Assembly (NCBI GenBank): GCA_018262095.1
Contig: JAGTRW010000003.1
Location: 1-64,000, forward strand
Direction of reading: 5' to 3'
Origin: Pseudomonadota bacterium
GTDB taxonomy: Bacteria; Pseudomonadota; Gammaproteobacteria; Burkholderiales; Rhodocyclaceae
Length of the DNA stretch: 64,000 nucleotides
Below the pieces are notes generated by a model. The model had not been told where the DNA came from, did not search any database, and saw nothing but the letters and a program-made list of their open reading frames with translations. This document shows positions 39,184-47,528 of this stretch, one piece after another. Made by a program: the position numbers and the translations under genes. Each line of letters begins with the position of its first letter. The stretch's first letter is position 1.

Positions 39184-39951
39184 TCAGAAGGTATCCCAAG
39201 CAAACTTCAGGATCAGCGAACAAACGACCAGCAGAAAGACCTTGCGCACCAGCGCGCTGCCGTGCCGTAGCGCAAGGTGAGTACCGATCACCGAACCAAG
39301 CACATTGAAGCTCGCCATCAGCACCGCCGCGACGGGCAGAACAAATCCGTTGGGTATAAAAAAGCTGATCGCCGCGAGGTTGGTCGCGACATTGACCACT
39401 TTTGATGCCGCCGAGGCATGCAGAAAATCAAAGCCGAAGAAGCGAATAAAAAGGAAGATCAGGAAACTCCCGGTTCCGGGTCCAAAAAAGCCATCGTAGA
39501 AACCGATCGCTGCACCGACCAGCAAGGCGTAGACGAATTCGCGGCGGCCATCGTGCTGCGGCCGGTGGGTGATGCCGAAATCCTTGCTCCAGAAGGTGTA
39601 GGCGGCGGAACCGACGAGCATGATCAGGATCAGCGGGCGCAACAGGTCGCGCGGTAACCAGGCGACTGCCATCGCGCCCAGATACGAGAAAGCGAAAGCG
39701 GCAACCGCCGCTGGTAGCGTGGTCCCCCACGGCATCGCGACTCGCCGCGAATAGCGCCACGCAGCGTTGGCGGTACCGAATACACTCGCAATTTTGTTGG
39801 TGCCAAAGAGCGTCGCCGGGACTTCCTTGGGCAGCACGGTGAATAGCGCGGGAATTTGGATCAGGCCGCCGCCACCAACCATCGAGTCGATCAAGCCGGC
39901 AAACAACGCAGCGACCGAAACGACCGTCAATACCGAATAGTCAATTCCCAC
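39184..39951 (-). CDS. TauE/SafE-family (TSUP) permease
   Basis: A ~255-residue membrane protein of the TauE/SafE family (sulfite or organosulfonate exporters, substrate varies). It has about eight helices; the family's first motif is LFAGLIDSMVGGGGLIQIPA and the second-half motif is IGFYDGFFGPGTGSFLIFLF. I prefer the GTG at 39951 (VGIDYSVLTVVS) to an ATG at 40014, because the 21 extra residues are polar and unconserved. Substrate cannot be told from sequence. It is the last gene before the origin-like region. Confidence 0.85.
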   Translation of the reverse strand: MGIDYSVLTVVSVAALFAGLIDSMVGGGGLIQIPALFTVLPKEVPATLFGTNKIASVFGTANAAWRYSRRVAMPWGTTLPAAVAAFAFSYLGAMAVAWLPRDLLRPLILIMLVGSAAYTFWSKDFGITHRPQHDGRREFVYALLVGAAIGFYDGFFGPGTGSFLIFLFIRFFGFDFLHASAASKVVNVATNLAAISFFIPNGFVLPVAAVLMASFNVLGSVIGTHLALRHGSALVRKVFLLVVCSLILKFAWDTF

Positions 39952-40145
39952 GATAACGCACCGCAATACCGGACAAGCAGAATTTTTCGGCGAAGTGCGG
40001 AAAAAATGGGTCAATTACGTTGGAAAACATCGATCTCTACCGTCTGAACAATCGCGCGTTTTGCGCTTAATCGACAATTATCGCCGAATTCGCACGGCAC
40101 CCACCGTGCGAAGATCGATTAAATCGGGAAAAGAGCCGAACAGAC

Positions 40146-40352
40146 GGTGGATAAGCGCTGTAGAAGACTGTGGATCAATTGTGAACAAAAGTCGGTCACG
40201 CGCCTCTCGGAAAAGTTATCCAATTTGGTGCACAGCGCGATACAGACTTTTGTTAACCTCTATTTATCACTTTAATCTGCTGAATAATTGGAATAATGAC
40301 AAGTTATCCACAGAGTTGACGCTGAGAGTATCTTTATAGTCTTTATATATAG
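40146..40352. other. origin-like region with DnaA boxes (copy A)
   Basis: Contains a perfect DnaA box TTATCCACA at 40304-40312 and near matches GGTGGATAA (40146-40154), TGTGGATCA (40169-40177) and TTATCCAAT (40216-40224). It is followed by an AT-rich stretch with ATCTTTATAG and TTTATATATA. From CACAG (40231) to TTATATATA (40352) it parallels the block just before dnaN (46297-46416) over ~120 bp. It could be a second replication-initiation or DnaA-titration site. The next 337 bp up to the mnmE stop hold no gene I can support, only an imperfect hairpin (CTTGTCTCGG / CCGGGACAAG, 40431-40465). Confidence 0.65.
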
Positions 40353-40689
40353 GTTCACTACAAGGTAGTACTACACCAAGAGCAAATCGACCGGCGCCGC
40401 ACTACCGGGAGGCTTTTTGGTATTCAGCAGCTTGTCTCGGCGTTGTTTTGCTTTCCCGGGACAAGACGTTAACCCAGCTGTCGCTTGCACAGGGACGCCA
40501 GGAGCGGCGATCGGCATCGTCGGCAGGGGTCAGGGTGGATTGCCGATCAAGAGCGCCGCACAGCGTCGGTACACGCGCGATGCTCGGCGTCGATGTCGTT
40601 TGCGCTGATGACGCGTTGAAAATGGATTGCTGGGAATCGTTGGCCGCTGAAAAGCCAAGACGGCGTTAGCGAGAGTTCGCCCAGTTCGT

Positions 40690-42066
40690 CTATTTGCCGA
40701 TGCAGAATCGTCCGAAGATTTCGCCGAGCAAGTCATCGGCGGAGAATTCGCCGGTAATCGAAGCGAGCGCCGACTGCGCCAGACGCAACTCTTCGGCAAA
40801 CAGTTCGAGTTGGGGCAACTGGGCAGCGGCGGCGACGATGTGCTCGCGGGTCGCAGACAGCGCGCGTAGATGGCGTTCGCGGGCGATGAATACATCCTCG
40901 GCAGGGTGCCAGCCGGCGATCTGCAGCAGGGCTTGGCGCAACAGTTCAACGCCCTCACCGGTCTTGGCCGAGAGCGAGATCGTCGGGCCCGCGGTGTCGT
41001 CGTGTCGCTGTGCCGAACGCCCGGCAAGATCGACCTTGTTATGGACAGTAATTCGCGCCAGGCGCGCCGGCAACTGGGCGAGAATGCGTCGTTCGGCATC
41101 GCCGATGCCGCTGCGGGCATCGACCAGCAAGACGACGACATCGGCGCGTTCGATTTCGCGCCAGGTGCGTTCGATGCCGATTTTCTCGATTTCGTCGTCG
41201 CTGGCGCGCAGCCCGGCGGTATCGATCACATGCAGTGGAATTCCTTCGATCTGCAAGGTGCTGCGGATGACGTCGCGGGTGGTCCCGGCGAGCGGCGTGA
41301 CGATGGCCAGGTCGTCGCCGGCCAGCGCGTTGAGCAGGCTCGATTTCCCGACATTCGGTTGCCCGGCGAGGACGACCTGCAGGCCGCCTTGCAGCAGCCG
41401 GCCTTGTTGGGCGCGGTCGAAAACGCAGGCCAGCCGCTGTTGCAAGCGTTCGACTCGACCGAAAGCATCGGCCGCTTCGAGAAAATCGACGTCTTCATCG
41501 GGAAAATCGAGGCAGGTTTCGACCAGCGCACGCAGTTCAGTGAGTTGGTCGAGCAGTGCGTGAATTTCGCTTGAAAATTCGCCGTGCAGCGAACGAACCG
41601 CGCTGCGCGCAGCGGCCTCGGTCGCGGCGTCGATCAGATCGACGACGGCTTCGGCCTGCGCCAGATCGAGCTTGCCGTTGAGATAGGCGCGGCGCGTAAA
41701 CTCGCCAGGTTCGGCGAGCCGCGCGCCTAGGTCGAGGCAACGCGCGAGCAGCATGCGCAGCACGACCGGGCCGCCATGGCCTTGCAGTTCGAGGACGTCT
41801 TCGCCGGTGTAGGAGTGAGGTGCTGGGAAATAAAGCAACAGGCCGCTGTCGATCAGGCGGCCGTCAGCGGCGCGGAAGTCGGCCAGCGTCGCCAGGCGAG
41901 GCTGCGGCACTTTGTCGCACAAGGCCTGGGCCAAGACCAACAGGCCTTGGCCGGAGAGGCGAATGACACCGATGCCGCCACGGCCCGGAGCCGTGGCGAT
42001 CGCCGCGATGGTCTCGCGACGCGGGGCCGAATCAGGCCTTGGCGTCGTTGGCGGCTTTTCCGCCAC
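40690..42066 (-). CDS. mnmE: tRNA modification GTPase MnmE (TrmE)
   Basis: A ~458-residue GTPase that, with MnmG, makes the 5-carboxymethylaminomethyl group on wobble uridine of several tRNAs. The N-terminal folate-binding domain starts [20 protein letters not shown]. The G domain has [14 protein letters not shown] (P-loop), DTAGL (G3) and HNKVD (G4). The C-terminal CIGK motif is the family's end. There is no clear start: a GTG at 42066 is the best in-frame codon, and it overlaps yidC by 35 nt; a TTG at 42102 would add 12 residues. Downstream of yidC in the classical rpmH-rnpA-yidD-yidC-mnmE order. Confidence 0.93.
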
Positions 42067-43729
42067 GTTCGACCATGCGGGTGATTTGCCATTGCTGGGC
42101 AATGGACAGGGTGTTGTTGACCACCCAGTAGAGCACCAGACCCGACGGGAAGAAGAAGAACATGCCGCCGAAGACGAAAGGCATGATCATGGTGATCTTG
42201 GCCTGAATCGGATCGGGCGGCGTCGGATTGAGCTTGGTCTGGATCAGCATGGTTGCCATCATGATCACCGGCAACACATAGAAGGGGTCTTGCGACGATA
42301 GATCGTGAATCCACAGGATCCACGGCGCGTCACGCATCTCGACGGCGCCGAGCAGCGCCCAGTAAAGCGCGATGAAGACCGGAATCTGAATGACGATCGG
42401 CAGGCAGCCACCGAGCGGATTGATCTTCTCGGTCTTGTAGAGACTCATCATTTCCTGGTTGAGCTTGGCCTTGTCGTCGCCGTAACGTTCGCGCAATGCG
42501 GTCATGCGCGGCGTCACCTTGCGCATCTTGGCCATTGACTTGTAGCTCGCCGCGGACAGCGGGAAGAAGATTGCCTTGATGCAAATGGTCAGCAGGACAA
42601 TCGCCCAGCCCCAGTTGCCGACCAATTTGTGGATGAGTTCCAGACACCAGAAAATCGGGGCGGCGACGATCGTCAGCCAGCCGTAATCGACAACCAGCGG
42701 CAGACCTTGCGCGCCGATTCCGCCGTCGGCGACCGGCTTGGCCAGTTGATCGAGCGTCGATTGAATCTGCGGCCCGGCATAGAGCGCGACCGACTGGTTG
42801 ACCTTGGCGCCCGGCGCGACGACCGGCGTCGGAACGATCAGGCCAGCGGTAATCGCCGGATTGACGCCGCCGTCGAGCTTACGCACATAAAATTCGCGCG
42901 ACAGCTTCTCGGCCGGGATCCAGGCCGCGACAAAGTAGTGCTGAACCATCGCCATCCAGCCGTTGTCGGCTTTGGTATTGAACTTGGCCTTGCCCTTTTC
43001 GATGTCGCTGAAGGTGATCTTCTGGTATTTATCCTGTTCCGTATAGACCGCCGGTCCGGTGAAGGTGCTGACCATGCGGCTCTCGCCAGCCGGCGCTTCG
43101 GTATCGCGCTGCAGCTGATAGTAGGCATGCGCCGCGATTTCCTTCTGACTACTGTTATCGATCTCGTAGCTGACATCAATCAGATAGCTGCCGCGCGTGA
43201 ACGTATAGACCTTGGTGACCTTGACGCCGTCGACGACCGGGGCAACGAGCCTGAGCTGAACGGTTTTGGCGTCGGCACCGAGTTCGCGGGATCCTGCGCT
43301 AACGGAAAAAACCGTTTTGTGGTTCGGCAAGCCTTCGCCAATCAGGCCGCTTTGCGCCGCAAACTGGTGCTTGCTTTCGAGGAACGGGAAATTCTTGTCC
43401 TTGTCGTCGATCGCCTTGTAGTTATTGAGTACCAGACCGACGAGATCACCACCTTGCGTCGAAACGTCGGCGACGAACAAATCGGTCTTGATACTGACGA
43501 CTTCGCCTTTCGTGACCGTCGGTGCCGAAACAACGGCGGGTACCGATGCGCTGCTGGCGGCGGCGGGCTGAGCCGCTGAAGGCACCGGCACCGAGGCGTC
43601 GCGGGCAACAGCGCTGACTGCAGCGGTTTGGGCCGGCACCGGGGGGTGGTTGTATTTCTGCCAGGCATCCCAGAGCATGACCAGCGAGAAAGAGAAGACA
43701 ACGAGGAGGATCAGGCGTCGGTTATCCAT
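42032..43729 (-). CDS. yidC: membrane protein insertase YidC
   Basis: A 565-residue insertase. An N-terminal helix ([20 protein letters not shown]) is followed by a large periplasmic domain and a C-terminal five-helix core with [38 protein letters not shown] and [20 protein letters not shown]. It inserts membrane proteins alone or with SecYEG. The ATG ending at 43729 was chosen because the conserved MDNRRLILL start begins there. Downstream of yidD, upstream of mnmE. Confidence 0.96.
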
Positions 43730-43752
43730 GAACGGCCTATACAATTAATGAT

Positions 43753-43962
43753 TCAGGGGACGGGGTCAAAACCACCCGGATTCCACGGATGGCAGCGGGA
43801 TATTCGTTTAAGGCCGAGGCGAGCGCCCTTGAGCGCACCATATTTCTCGAGCGCTTCGGCTGCGTACTCCGAGCAACTCGGAAAAAAACGGCAGCGGCGC
43901 CCAAGAACAGGGCTGATCACATATTTATAGATGCGGATCAGTACCAGCAGCAATTGTTTCAT
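43753..43962 (-). CDS. yidD: membrane protein insertion efficiency factor YidD
   Basis: A 69-residue YidD, a small membrane-associated protein that helps YidC-dependent insertion. The family core is clear: [20 protein letters not shown], then CSEYAAEAL and [20 protein letters not shown]. It lies 4 bp after rnpA and 23 bp before yidC, as in most proteobacteria. Confidence 0.95.
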
Positions 43963-43966
43963 CGGC

Positions 43967-44362
43967 TCATGGTTCAGGTGAGATCATTTTTCCCAGTAAG
44001 CCCTGGATTTCTTGCGCCAAGGCTCGCCGGTCGAGTGCATCAGGTTTGGCTGCCAGGCGCAAAATCAGGTCGCGCGACGGTAGTTTGCTGCGCATCAAGC
44101 GGAAGTGCTCGCGCGCCAATCGCCGAATCAGATTTCGATCCACCGAACGACGCAGAAATCGCTTGGCTACAACCAGACCCAAGCGGGCGCCTGGTACCTC
44201 TTCAGCCGTCCGAAGGCGGTAATGTAACAGGAAATGTTTGCTCTTCAGCGCCTTCCTGAAACCAAAAACGGATGAAAACTCATCCGTTTTTGTCAGTCGA
44301 TAGTACTTGGGAAACACGGCAGCAGCGGGCTGGCGTTCCCCGGCAGGCTGTTTGGCGTTCAA
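43967..44362 (-). CDS. rnpA: ribonuclease P protein component RnpA
   Basis: A ~131-residue RNase P protein subunit that assists the catalytic RNA in 5' tRNA processing. The core begins [14 protein letters not shown] and carries the RNR-like motif [19 protein letters not shown]. The first possible start is a TTG that overlaps the rpmH stop (TTGA); a GTG 45 nt further in would give a shorter protein closer to the core. Coupled to rpmH in the usual rpmH-rnpA order. Confidence 0.93.
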
Positions 44363-44493
44363 ACGGCCAAGCGGTGACGACCTTTGGCGCGACGAGCGCG
44401 AATCACGGCACGACCGCCGCGGGTGGCCATTCGGACCAGGAAGCCGTGAGTACGCTTGCGTCGAATAACCGACGGTTGATAGGTGCGTTTCAT
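44359..44493 (-). CDS. rpmH: 50S ribosomal protein L34
   Basis: A 44-residue L34: [20 protein letters not shown], then [20 protein letters not shown] and RLAV. It is essentially the family sequence. The start is the ATG ending at 44493; a good sigma-70-like promoter lies about 40-70 bp upstream. It diverges from dnaA across 314 bp, the classical location of a chromosomal origin. Confidence 0.98.
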
Positions 44494-44530
44494 TATTAAA
44501 CCCTTGAAGTCATTACGAAGTAAACGCGGA

Positions 44531-44560
44531 ATTAGACATTGCCAAGCTTGTTCTTGTCAA
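44531..44560 (-). promoter_or_regulatory. promoter of rpmH operon
   Basis: On the minus strand TTGACA (44560-44555) and TCTAAT (44536-44531) are spaced by 18 bp, giving a start of transcription about 30 nt before rpmH. This is the cleanest promoter in the dnaA-rpmH gap. Confidence 0.6.
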
Positions 44561-44807
44561 GTCTAAATTTTTGGTCAAGCTGTGGATAACTTTGATCCGA
44601 CAGGTTAGAATCCAACTCTTTCAGTGCTCACAAGAGGCTGATAAGAGCAATAAAGTTTGTCAGAAATCATTCCTGTCCGCGTCAAATAGCTAGCGTCTAC
44701 AAATAGCCGGATACCCCAGCAGAGGCTGAACGGCTGGGTGCCAAGGGCGGACAGTCACAGCCTATGTCATTGCAGTACTTAATCGGGATGGTGTTGAATC
44801 ACTAGTC
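44561..44807. other. dnaA-rpmH intergenic region, possible oriC
   Basis: This gap contains one perfect DnaA box (TGTGGATAA at 44581-44589) and lies between divergent rpmH and dnaA, where many proteobacterial origins map. It has only this one strong box and no long AT-rich block, so it is weaker as an origin than the dnaA-dnaN gap. The dnaA promoter must lie here, but I cannot pick it with confidence. Confidence 0.5.
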
Positions 44808-46205
44808 ATGAGTAGTTTCTGGATTTCCTGCTTGAGCCAGTTCGAAAACGAACTTCCGCCTCAGCAATTCAACACCTGGATTCGTCCACTTCGTCTCGAA
44901 GGTGAAGATGACTTCGCCAACGGCCTGCGTCTTTTCGCGCCTAACGGTTTTATCCTGAAATGGGTCAAAGAGCGTTACCTGGGGCGCATTGAAGAACTCG
45001 GTAGTGCCTACTTTTCGGCGCCGGTTTGCGTTGCGCTGTTGCTCGCCGAGCGCAGCGCGGCACCGCCGGCACCGCCGCGTGCCGCACCGTCCGCGGGGAA
45101 CCCGAGTATTCAGAGCCGCGCCCCCAATATGGCGCAAGCGGTGCTGGAACGACCGATTGAAAAAAGTCGCTCGTTTTATGAGAAGACGCGGCTGATCCCC
45201 GGTTTTACCTTCGAAAACCTGATCGTCGGCAAAGCGAACGACCTGGCGCGAGCGGCCTCGGTGCAGGTCGCCATCAACCCCGGCGGCGCGGCTTATAACC
45301 CGATGTTCATTTACGGCGGCGCGGGTCTCGGCAAGACGCACCTGATCCACGCGATAGGCAACCATATTCTCGAACAGAATCCCGAGAAGGTGGTCCGTTA
45401 CGTACATGCCGAGGATTATTATTCCGATGTCGTTCGCGCTTATCAGACCAAATCGTTTGACGCTTTCAAGCGCTACTATCGTTCGCTTGATGTGCTTTTG
45501 CTCGACGATGTTCAATTTTTTAACGGGAAGAACCGGACTCAGGAAGAATTCTTCTTTGTTTTCAATGCATTGATTGAATCTAAGAAACAAATCGTGATCA
45601 GTTGCGATACCTATCCGAAGGACATTTCAGGCCTCGAAGACAGGCTGATCACCCGCTTTGACTGGGGCCTTACAGTCCAAATCGAGCCGCCTGAAATCGA
45701 GATGCGTGTCGCAATTCTCAAGAAGAAGGCCGAGGCGGAGCGTGTCGATCTTGACGATGAAGTCTCCTTCTACATCGCCAAACATCTGCGATCAAATGTC
45801 CGGGAACTCGAGGGTGCGCTCAAGAAAGTGCTGGCTTATTCGTCTTTCCATGGCCGCAAGATCGATCTCGATCTCGCCAAGGAGTCGCTCAAGGATCTGA
45901 TTGGTGCGGTCAATCGGCAGATTACCGTCGAAAATATCCAGAAGACGGTCGCCGACTACTTCAAGATCAAGGTTTCCGATCTGTTTTCCAAAAAACGTAC
46001 GCGGCAAATCGCGCGTCCGCGTCAGGTCGCCATGTGGTTGGCAAAAAACCTGACCTCGCAGAGTTATCCGTCAATTGGCGAAGCTTTCGGCGGTCGCGAC
46101 CATACCACCGTGCTGCATGCGGTTCGTACGATCGAGACCTTGCGGGCAAAGGATAACGAGTTGAACCATGATGTTCACGTTCTGCTGCAGGTGTTGAAGG
46201 GCTAG
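44808..46205 (+). CDS. dnaA: chromosomal replication initiator DnaA
   Basis: A 465-residue initiator. Domain I opens SSFWISCLSQFENELPPQQF, domain III has Walker A (YGGAGLGKTHLIHAIGNH) and Walker B (LLLDDVQFFNGK), and domain IV carries the DNA-binding signature GGRDHTTVLHAVRTI. The low-complexity linker (APPAPPRAAPSAGN) is domain II. Full length. Rightward dnaA-dnaN-gyrB order marks the origin neighbourhood. Confidence 0.98.
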   Translation: MSSFWISCLSQFENELPPQQFNTWIRPLRLEGEDDFANGLRLFAPNGFILKWVKERYLGRIEELGSAYFSAPVCVALLLAERSAAPPAPPRAAPSAGNPSIQSRAPNMAQAVLERPIEKSRSFYEKTRLIPGFTFENLIVGKANDLARAASVQVAINPGGAAYNPMFIYGGAGLGKTHLIHAIGNHILEQNPEKVVRYVHAEDYYSDVVRAYQTKSFDAFKRYYRSLDVLLLDDVQFFNGKNRTQEEFFFVFNALIESKKQIVISCDTYPKDISGLEDRLITRFDWGLTVQIEPPEIEMRVAILKKKAEAERVDLDDEVSFYIAKHLRSNVRELEGALKKVLAYSSFHGRKIDLDLAKESLKDLIGAVNRQITVENIQKTVADYFKIKVSDLFSKKRTRQIARPRQVAMWLAKNLTSQSYPSIGEAFGGRDHTTVLHAVRTIETLRAKDNELNHDVHVLLQVLKG

Positions 46206-46271
46206 TTTGCGTATGTATAAGTCTAGGGACAAAACTTGTGTAAAAAGTGAACAAGTGGGCCGATGAAGGCT

Positions 46272-46416
46272 TGTGGATAACTTGTTCCTTTTTTCCCACA
46301 GCTCGATACAGAGTTTTTACAGTTCAAAATATGAACGTAACTAATTGTTAAATAATGATAAGTTATAGATATCCACAGAGTTGTCTTTGATATTATCTTT
46401 ATAGGATTTATATATA
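46272..46416. other. dnaA-dnaN intergenic origin-like block (copy B)
   Basis: Contains a perfect DnaA box TGTGGATAA (46272-46280) and a one-mismatch box ATATCCACA (46369-46377), then an AT-rich stretch (GATATTATCTTTATAGG to TTTATATATATG) that runs into the dnaN start codon. It is the better candidate for the unwinding element near dnaA. It parallels 40231-40352 over ~120 bp. Confidence 0.65.
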
Positions 46417-47528
46417 TGCTTCTTATTAAAACAAAGCGTGACACGCTGCTGGCACCTCTGCAGTCGGTGTCAGGGATCGTCGAGAAGAGACATACCCTGC
46501 CGATTTTGTCGAATGTGCTGCTGGAAAAAAAAGCTGACAAACTCACTTTGTTGGCGACTGACATTGAGATTCAAATTACGACCTCAACTGACGCTGACTC
46601 GGGTAGCGGCGACGGTTCGGTGACCGTCGGTGCGCGCAAGTTGCAGGACATTTTGCGATCCTTGCCGGATACGGCCGAGGTCAGTCTGAATCTCGAAGAC
46701 AAGCGTTTGCAGGTCAAAGCAGGCAAGAGCCGATTCACGCTGCAAACCCTTCCGGCCGAGGATTTTCCGCGCATGGCGTTGTCGGACGGGGACCTGAAGA
46801 GCTTCACCGTGACCCAGAAGCAGTTCCGGCAGCTTTTGGGACAAACCCAGTTTTCAATGGCGGCACAGGACGTTCGCTATTATCTGAATGGTCTGTTGTT
46901 ATTGGTCGACGGCAACGAATTGCGGGCGGTCGCGACCGATGGTCACCGCCTGGCCTATGCCAGCATGCCGCTCGAAGGCGAAGCGACGTCGCCGCGTCAG
47001 GAGTTGATTTTGCCGCGCAAGACGGTACTCGAACTGAGTCGTCTGCTCGCCGATAGCGATGAGCCGCTGCTGATCGAGTTGGCGGCGAACCAGATCCGCT
47101 TCAAGTTTGGGCAGATCAGCCTGGTTTCGAAATTGATCGATGGAAAATTCCCTGATTACGAACGCGTCATTCCGGCAACGCTCAAAAATGTCGTGACGTT
47201 GAATCGGGCCGCATTGCTGCAGTCGATGGTTCGCGCCGCGATTCTGACCAATGAGAAATTCCGTGGGGTTCGGTTGGTACTGACGCCAGGCAGCATGAAG
47301 ATCATGGCTGCGAATGCCGAGCAGGAAGAGGCTCAGGAAGAAATCGAGGTTGACTACAGTGGTGACTCGATCGATGTCGGGTTCAATGTCGGTTACCTGC
47401 TGGACGTTCTTAACAACAGTTCGGTTGAAGCCGTCGAATGGGGATTCAACGACGCCAATTCGAGCGCTTTGCTGACAATTCCAGGAAATGACCGCTTCAA
47501 GTACGTCGTTATGCCGATGAGAATCTAG
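46416..47528 (+). CDS. dnaN: DNA polymerase III beta clamp
   Basis: A 370-residue sliding clamp, three repeats of the clamp fold. It opens LIKTKRDTLLAPLQSVSGIV, with ATDGHRLAYASMP in the second domain, and ends with the characteristic VVMPMRI. The start ATG sits at the very end of the AT-rich origin block. Full length. Confidence 0.98.
   Translation: MLLIKTKRDTLLAPLQSVSGIVEKRHTLPILSNVLLEKKADKLTLLATDIEIQITTSTDADSGSGDGSVTVGARKLQDILRSLPDTAEVSLNLEDKRLQVKAGKSRFTLQTLPAEDFPRMALSDGDLKSFTVTQKQFRQLLGQTQFSMAAQDVRYYLNGLLLLVDGNELRAVATDGHRLAYASMPLEGEATSPRQELILPRKTVLELSRLLADSDEPLLIELAANQIRFKFGQISLVSKLIDGKFPDYERVIPATLKNVVTLNRAALLQSMVRAAILTNEKFRGVRLVLTPGSMKIMAANAEQEEAQEEIEVDYSGDSIDVGFNVGYLLDVLNNSSVEAVEWGFNDANSSALLTIPGNDRFKYVVMPMRI

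Follow-up and report, generated by a model that had tools for sequence, protein, structure and literature searches.

A second origin-like module beyond mnmE suggests a two-module replication origin in Rhodocyclaceae

Why would a bacterial chromosome carry, past the far end of its dnaA gene cluster, a second version of the origin-like block that lies between dnaA and dnaN? The question is raised by a stretch of 64,000 nucleotides from a Pseudomonadota bacterium of the Rhodocyclaceae (assembly GCA_018262095.1, contig JAGTRW010000003.1, positions 1 to 64,000; hereafter the window). Block A sits between tauE and mnmE and block B between dnaA and dnaN. The blocks are about 6 kb apart and are separated by mnmE, yidC, a YidD-like frame, rnpA, rpmH and dnaA. 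The original prediction, made from the letters of the window, proposed a bipartite or duplicated origin. Here, A and B are read as one two-module origin in which both halves would carry an unwinding element, unlike described split origins, and the probability assigned to this reading is roughly 0.6. The following elements lead to the prediction that DnaA binds the modules, that A can be unwound and that the two modules cooperate.

40139..40211, minus strand: DnaA-box cluster left of block A, with three boxes at 40146, 40169 and 40180
40212..40351, plus strand: block A, the second origin-like module past mnmE, 140 bp, recognised by profile match and identity to block B
40304..40312, plus strand: perfect DnaA box of block A, TTATCCACA
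40330..40347, plus strand: six in-phase N-T-N triplets of block A (ATC TTT ATA GTC TTT ATA), DnaA-trio-like
44581..44589, minus strand: lone DnaA box, a perfect match, between rpmH and dnaA
46212, 46237 and 46272, minus strand: further DnaA boxes of block B
46278..46418, plus strand: block B, the dnaN-side oriC-like module, whose last bases are the dnaN start codon
46369..46377, plus strand: DnaA box of block B, ATATCCACA
46392..46403, plus strand: four N-T-N triplets of block B (ATT ATC TTT ATA), 14 nt past the box
46404-46406, plus strand: GGA, the dnaN Shine-Dalgarno, which interrupts the triplet run of block B

Comparison of the two blocks confirms at the sequence level that block A is a divergent duplicate of block B, which resembles oriC. 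The words quoted as shared in the original prediction were all found in place, and alignment of 40209-40351 with 46275-46416 gave 68% identity over 149 columns. The local alignment score was 52, whereas 1000 dinucleotide shuffles averaged 12.8 and never exceeded 24. A profile built from the dnaN-upstream stretches of 68 relatives, with neither window block included, was used to scan the 159.6-kb contig. Block B scored 111.4 bits and block A 71.3 bits (E 7e-21), and all other sites were at or below 18.3 bits, the best of them lying just left of block A at 40145-40188. A sequence-only model (R1), whose training included blocks A and B, returned the two blocks and a 14.5-bit match just left of A from the whole 4.8-Mb assembly. 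Clusters of at least three DnaA boxes (at most one mismatch) within 250 bp occur in the window at A and B only. The predicted DnaA box and AT-rich end are present in both blocks, B ends on the dnaN start codon, and the third box proposed for the dnaA-rpmH gap is a perfect match on the minus strand at 44581. Two details of the prediction needed correction. The insertion that separates GTTA from the box in copy B measures 6 nt (TAGATA) rather than 5 nt, and the extent given for copy A was too short, as conservation reaches left to about 40140 and includes the three minus-strand boxes at 40146, 40169 and 40180, each with one mismatch to TTATNCACA. A duplication created by assembly is unlikely because A and B are too different and the same arrangement recurs in a separate assembly. 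An inverted partial match to the block's own start was also seen at 40145-40188. Folded as single-stranded DNA, the 150 nt to the left of A's AT-rich end (40130-40279) modestly outperform shuffles (z -2.0) and form a 10-bp helix; the AT-rich ends themselves showed nothing when folded in this way.

The two kinds of module mostly differ in the triplet at the position of the dnaN Shine-Dalgarno. Many dnaN-side copies and many second copies have AT-rich DNA after the last DnaA box, with T enriched at the middle position of the triplets from 14 nt onward, and 14 nt is the commonest box-to-trio spacer. The second copies compared came from 77 copies (one 15-bit partial match already dropped) after L271 and L155 were excluded as repeats of other loci, which left 54. 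Dropping L275 (more than three box mismatches) left 53, including the near-dnaN copy of L179, classed as second by the distance rule. The frequency of T by phase is 0.39/0.78/0.33 in these 53 second copies and 0.34/0.68/0.31 in 20 dnaN-side copies. Triplet 5 of the dnaN-side copies is the Shine-Dalgarno (GGA in 19 of 20, GGG in 1 of 20). Triplet 5 is N-T-N in 45 of the 53 second copies, where the preceding base is G in 81% and T in only 8%. In block A, GTC (40339-40341) occupies the place of block B's GGA. The replacement is seen in eight of ten groups by the grouping used here: g1 (6/6), g62-like (24/26), g19 (3/5), g59 (3/3), g32 (2/2), g4 (1/1), g61 (2/2) and the Azoarcus group (4/4), with 0/2 in both g43 and g21. 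ATG stands at the start-codon place in only 2 of the 53 second copies. The other five second copies of the window's genus (L003, L164, L165, L166 and L167) have 6-7 trios at spacer 14, and block B has four trios at the same spacer. The length of the block A run compared with shuffles gives p 0.057, which is weak alone. As a separate observation, the N-T-N phase continues into the first dnaN codons (ATG CTT CTT ATT; 46416-46427 in the window and the equivalent positions elsewhere), and the dnaN start itself may be part of the unwinding tract.

Block A is an island of conservation within non-coding DNA. In a relative with the same arrangement (L003), 50-bp windows are 0.54-0.75 identical over most of about 40140-40370, and two windows inside the island reach only 0.46 and 0.50. 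Windows over the box cluster at 40139..40211 are 0.54-0.64 identical versus 0.25-0.5 in the flanks, and the tauE-mnmE intergene outside the island is at 0.25-0.50. The genes around the two blocks are listed below. The names of yidC, the YidD-like frame, rnpA and rpmH come from our own reading of the sequence.

39184..40014, minus strand: TauE/SafE-family exporter gene, tauE (Pfam PF01925, 1.5e-47)
40690..42102, minus strand: mnmE (Pfam MnmE/TrmE domains)
42032..43744, minus strand: yidC (open reading frame and positions in relatives)
about 43750-43965: YidD-like short frame (open reading frame)
43967-44362: rnpA (open reading frame and positions in relatives)
44362-44493: rpmH (open reading frame and positions in relatives)
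44808..46205, plus strand: dnaA (Pfam Bac_DnaA)
46416..47528, plus strand: dnaN (Pfam DNA_pol3_beta domains)

The closest relatives of the window by DnaA include Propionivibrio and Accumulibacter genomes, which places it in or near the Rhodocyclaceae. A block B-type module is recognisable upstream of dnaN in most relatives examined. Among 81 stretches (80 relatives and the window) searched with the dnaN-upstream profile, extra copies with E about 1e-11 or better were found in L003, L017, L040, L044, L048 and the window. L049 and L069 are a different case, with the dnaA-dnaN block itself moved away from dnaN, and the L031 stretch stops before dnaN. A-type copies occur past mnmE or beside tauE in several genera, and tauE is a frequent neighbour of the second module. 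The original prediction held that absence of the mnmE-side copy from close relatives would count against it. R1 matched 25 of the 28 genomes of the window's genus, and the outcome is divided: six have two copies, 19 have a single match (counted whether dnaN-side or second) and three have none. A further model from 34 second copies (R3) found no additional copies above 17.5 bits in this genus. Genus labels such as Dechloromonas-like were taken from named loci (e.g. L044, L046, L017 and L082) on coinciding contigs.

In the Dechloromonas-like genus (g62), R1 matched 34 of 38 genomes drawn from a larger group and found two copies in 24. A hand count of 20 same-contig pairs gave 16 inverted, three tandem and one direct. 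Twelve of the inverted pairs are spaced 5.6-5.7 kb and the remainder 6.2-8.9 kb; the tandem pairs are about 0.3 kb apart within the dnaA-dnaN gap, and the direct pair is 4.5 kb apart. In the Accumulibacter-like genus (g19), all 28 genomes had an R1 match and five had two copies; R3 added none above 16.1 bits. Across the family sample 283 of 395 genomes matched and about 62 had at least two copies (hand count, R1), figures from a model and filters that miss divergent copies. L275 (G417:C66 86658-86796) has its second module past gyrB, on the other side of the cluster, in direct orientation and near a contig end. L180 (G107:C12 61784-61895, 63470-63582) has two inverted copies about 1.7 kb apart with near-identical AT-rich ends; none of the eight cluster genes is on its 11-kb stretch, and the triplet pattern of its genus (g21) differs.

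The distance between dnaA and dnaN is only 38-102 bp in eight named stretches of Azoarcus, Thauera and Aromatoleum (L068, L070, L071, L073, L074, L078, L080 and L082), and it is 48 bp in the Azoarcus-like genome L1K30. R1 matches, mostly weak, lie elsewhere in six of the eight genomes, next to genes that we read as rdgC, rsuA and earP. A model from six Azoarcus-group copies (R2) found two copies in all five genomes of the L1K30 genus, all convergent and spaced 2.6-2.7 kb. In the other Azoarcus-group genomes it found two copies in six of seven and one copy in the seventh; the six comprise four tandem pairs at 0.45-0.63 kb, one convergent pair at 3.7 kb and one split across two contigs. Because R2 was trained wholly within this group, these second copies are no independent test of R1; the skew is. 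The L1K30 pair (L082 / G446:C1 3375331-3378122) lies about 105 kb from dnaA, beside genes that we take, from our own reading of the sequence, to be rdgC, rsuA and earP. In L1K30 negative skew prevails as far as 3.37-3.38 Mb and positive skew beyond, and the cumulative minimum at 3.376-3.378 Mb falls between the copies at 3.3753 and 3.3780 Mb. The 20-kb stretches left and right of the pair have skews of -0.054/+0.039 in G093 and -0.054/+0.038 in G174. Each of these pairs likewise has the presumed earP-rsuA and rdgC on its flanks, and the eight dnaA-cluster proteins gave no match in the pair loci or in the adjoining 20 kb on either side. The skew sign thus changes across the block pair in three of three Azoarcus-like genomes tested. 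A switch at the pair with no dnaA nearby indicates that the block pair marks the replication start in these genomes.

Skew elsewhere in the family is less decisive. In the Dechloromonas-type genome G137 it fits an origin at the blocks, with A and B not separable. A clean switch was sought in the window's contig and was not found; the skew is noisy and has its cumulative minimum at 22.9 kb. The fourfold-site skew of mnmE-yidC-rnpA-rpmH was tried as a sign of fork start and rejected. It is positive on the top strand in most A-less genomes too, so intragenic fourfold skew is uninformative on this point and apparently reflects codon bias.

The direction of the duplication is marked by dnaN itself. 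Inspection by eye shows traces of dnaN codons 2-5 after the AT-rich end of many second copies, which indicates that second copies were derived from the dnaN side. At least four genera (g1, g32, g59 and g62) contribute to the 32 of the 54 second copies that have tauE or mnmE within 300 bp, and this common placement suggests shared ancestry of the 32 in one old event. A tree was built from 71 copies (42 second and 29 dnaN-side) over 144 columns, excluding 13 loci that included L155, L271, the weakest or most divergent copies and the Azoarcus-group copies. It groups the copies largely by genus, and its supported branches force at least six changes between the two kinds. In L040 and L167 the rpmH-dnaA-gap copy groups with the dnaN-side copy of the same locus (95/91 and 98/97). 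Repeated duplication, one duplication followed by homogenisation and lineage-specific co-evolution would all fit a tree of 144 columns.

By its sequence the window arrangement is a variant of the split origin, because an unwinding element appears in both halves and the distance between them is larger. Divided origins are described as having DnaA boxes in both subregions and the unwinding element in one (PMC4285127). In the accounts of the bipartite oriC of Helicobacter pylori and Bacillus subtilis, the box clusters occupy separate intergenes around dnaA and the unwinding element is in the dnaA-dnaN gap (PMC8235120, PMC4285127, PMC6669920, PMC5043019); DnaA looping between the origin halves is described for both species (PMC8235120). 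The window likewise has two separate DnaA-box clusters, at A and B. In contrast to the one unwinding half of those descriptions, both window blocks have a box and an AT-rich phased tract. The described spacer is usually dnaA alone and up to about 2 kb, whereas at least five genes and about 6 kb separate A from B, and the outer half lies past mnmE.

Each module also resembles in layout the basal unwinding system (BUS), outlined in PMC8287927 as a DnaA box with at least three 3'-NAN-5' trios within 16 bp and a spacer peak at 10-13. The DnaA-trio motif is given as 5'-CTA-3' with a conserved T (PMC8235120). The window modules share with the BUS as outlined the order of box, spacer and mid-T triplets on the box strand, which are 3'-NAN-5' on the other strand. 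They differ from it in that the module is present twice, the commonest spacer is 14 nt rather than 10-13, and the Shine-Dalgarno of dnaN interrupts the tract on the dnaN side. The box and trios of B. subtilis have the same relative polarity as those here, in agreement with the 5'-CTA-3' motif. Two origins in Pseudomonas aeruginosa were reportedly described by Yee and Smith in 1990 and by Jiang in 2006. They are mentioned as putative in PMC4403523, and judged by that description the window is similar in having two candidate origin regions on one chromosome; the mnmE/tauE-side placement and the duplication from the dnaN side are the findings added here. The putative double origins of Gao 2015, with dnaA, parB or hemE as adjacent genes, are likewise two origin-like regions per bacterial chromosome, and the four entries of the table in that article contain no Rhodocyclaceae (PMC4403523). 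A literature search found no paper on the origins of this family, and older subscription papers may exist.

Several observations weigh against a two-module origin. Many relatives show one block only, and block A seems dispensable over evolution, given the single match in most genomes of its genus and the failure of R3 to add others. The orientation and spacing of the pairs vary widely, with spacings from 0.3 kb to 241 kb in relatives. The largest is in the Accumulibacter-like genome G045, where the second copy (1.487 Mb) lies in the negative-skew arm, 241 kb from the dnaN-side copy (1.728 Mb). In 20 sampled 20-kb stretches of this genome, negative skew extends through 1.64 Mb and gives way to mixed values up to about 1.72 Mb; from 1.73 Mb the skew is weakly and unevenly positive (-0.005 to +0.044). 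The switch is therefore near the dnaN side and not at the remote second copy, which is not the main start there. The tree does not unite the second copies, and a single clade of them is rejected (approximately unbiased test, p 0.022). N-T-N runs of dnaN-side copies are no longer than in shuffled T-rich DNA (median p 0.77; p 0.79 for block B), those of second copies mostly are not longer either (median p 0.52), and the uninterrupted six-trio run of block A begins 17 nt after the box, past the limit of 16 in PMC8287927. Sister sequences, moreover, are not independent events. The bipartite or duplicated origin of the original prediction thus gains from the conserved A-type copies past mnmE or tauE in several genera and from the Azoarcus-like skew, but two copies were found in only part of the genus.

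Some of these points would be expected if A were a regulatory DnaA-binding site left by an old origin copy, which would set timing by titration, in the manner of datA or a DnaA-reactivating sequence (DARS), and would itself stay unmelted. This alternative is unlikely, although it deserves serious consideration. It accommodates the box cluster retained at A, a copy 241 kb from the origin in G045 and the relatives in which the second copy is not found. Titration needs boxes only, yet the copies retain the AT-rich element, many retain the 14-nt phase as well, and N-T-N has taken the place of the Shine-Dalgarno triplet; the Azoarcus-like block pairs also stand together at the skew switch without dnaA. 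It is improbable that A is what remains of a duplication, now decaying and without function. Patchy presence, variable place and orientation and an A-B identity of just 68% are what decay would leave, but not the perfect DnaA box in A, the island shared with L003 amid poorly alignable non-coding DNA or the consistent replacement in eight of ten groups. Least credible is a copy of the dnaN promoter that serves tauE, or a small RNA, as promoter or leader. Block B does abut dnaN, and in several genera A lies upstream of tauE on the same strand. However, the orientation relative to tauE differs among genera, window A does not face tauE, and between A and mnmE, itself on the opposite strand, no gene could be seen. 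In the promoter/terminator scan A lacked a sigma-70-like site and the region did not exceed shuffles; the terminator part was likewise negative, and A has no Rfam match. A search for dnaA in viral contigs found none.

In the two-module origin, each module would be a DnaA-box array whose last box faces an AT-rich unwinding element built of N-T-N triplets in phase, which is how DnaA-trios read on the top strand. DnaA would fill the boxes of both modules, extend from the last box onto the trio strand and open the AT-rich DNA at B, at A or at both. Alternatively, one module may pass DnaA to the other through a loop, as in B. subtilis and H. pylori. Block A would have arisen from a duplicated dnaA-dnaN intergene that included the first dnaN codons; its dnaN start codon and Shine-Dalgarno would then have disappeared, and its trio tract would have been retained or completed. 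Orientation is inverted in most Dechloromonas-type and Azoarcus-type pairs and direct in the window and in tandem Aromatoleum pairs, and this variation does not favour a strict model of one module per fork. A broader proposal is put forward tentatively, as somewhat doubtful: many Rhodocyclaceae may initiate at an origin of two unwinding-competent modules, of which the second, relieved of the dnaN ribosome-binding site and start codon and with its more complete trio tract, may be the preferred or an alternative melting site. The modules would have been repeatedly duplicated, moved and lost, and the Azoarcus pair would have left dnaA.

Why some bacterial origins are split is described as an open question (PMC4285127). 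A family whose species have either two or one of these unwinding elements, arranged in tandem, inverted or at a distance from dnaA, amounts to a natural experiment on the role of the second half. The family also points to a cost when the origin and the translation start of dnaN share DNA, because the ribosome-binding triplet interrupts the trio tract and N-T-N replaces that triplet once the module is freed. These results suggest that such bacteria use, or used, an origin of two DNA-opening modules rather than one.

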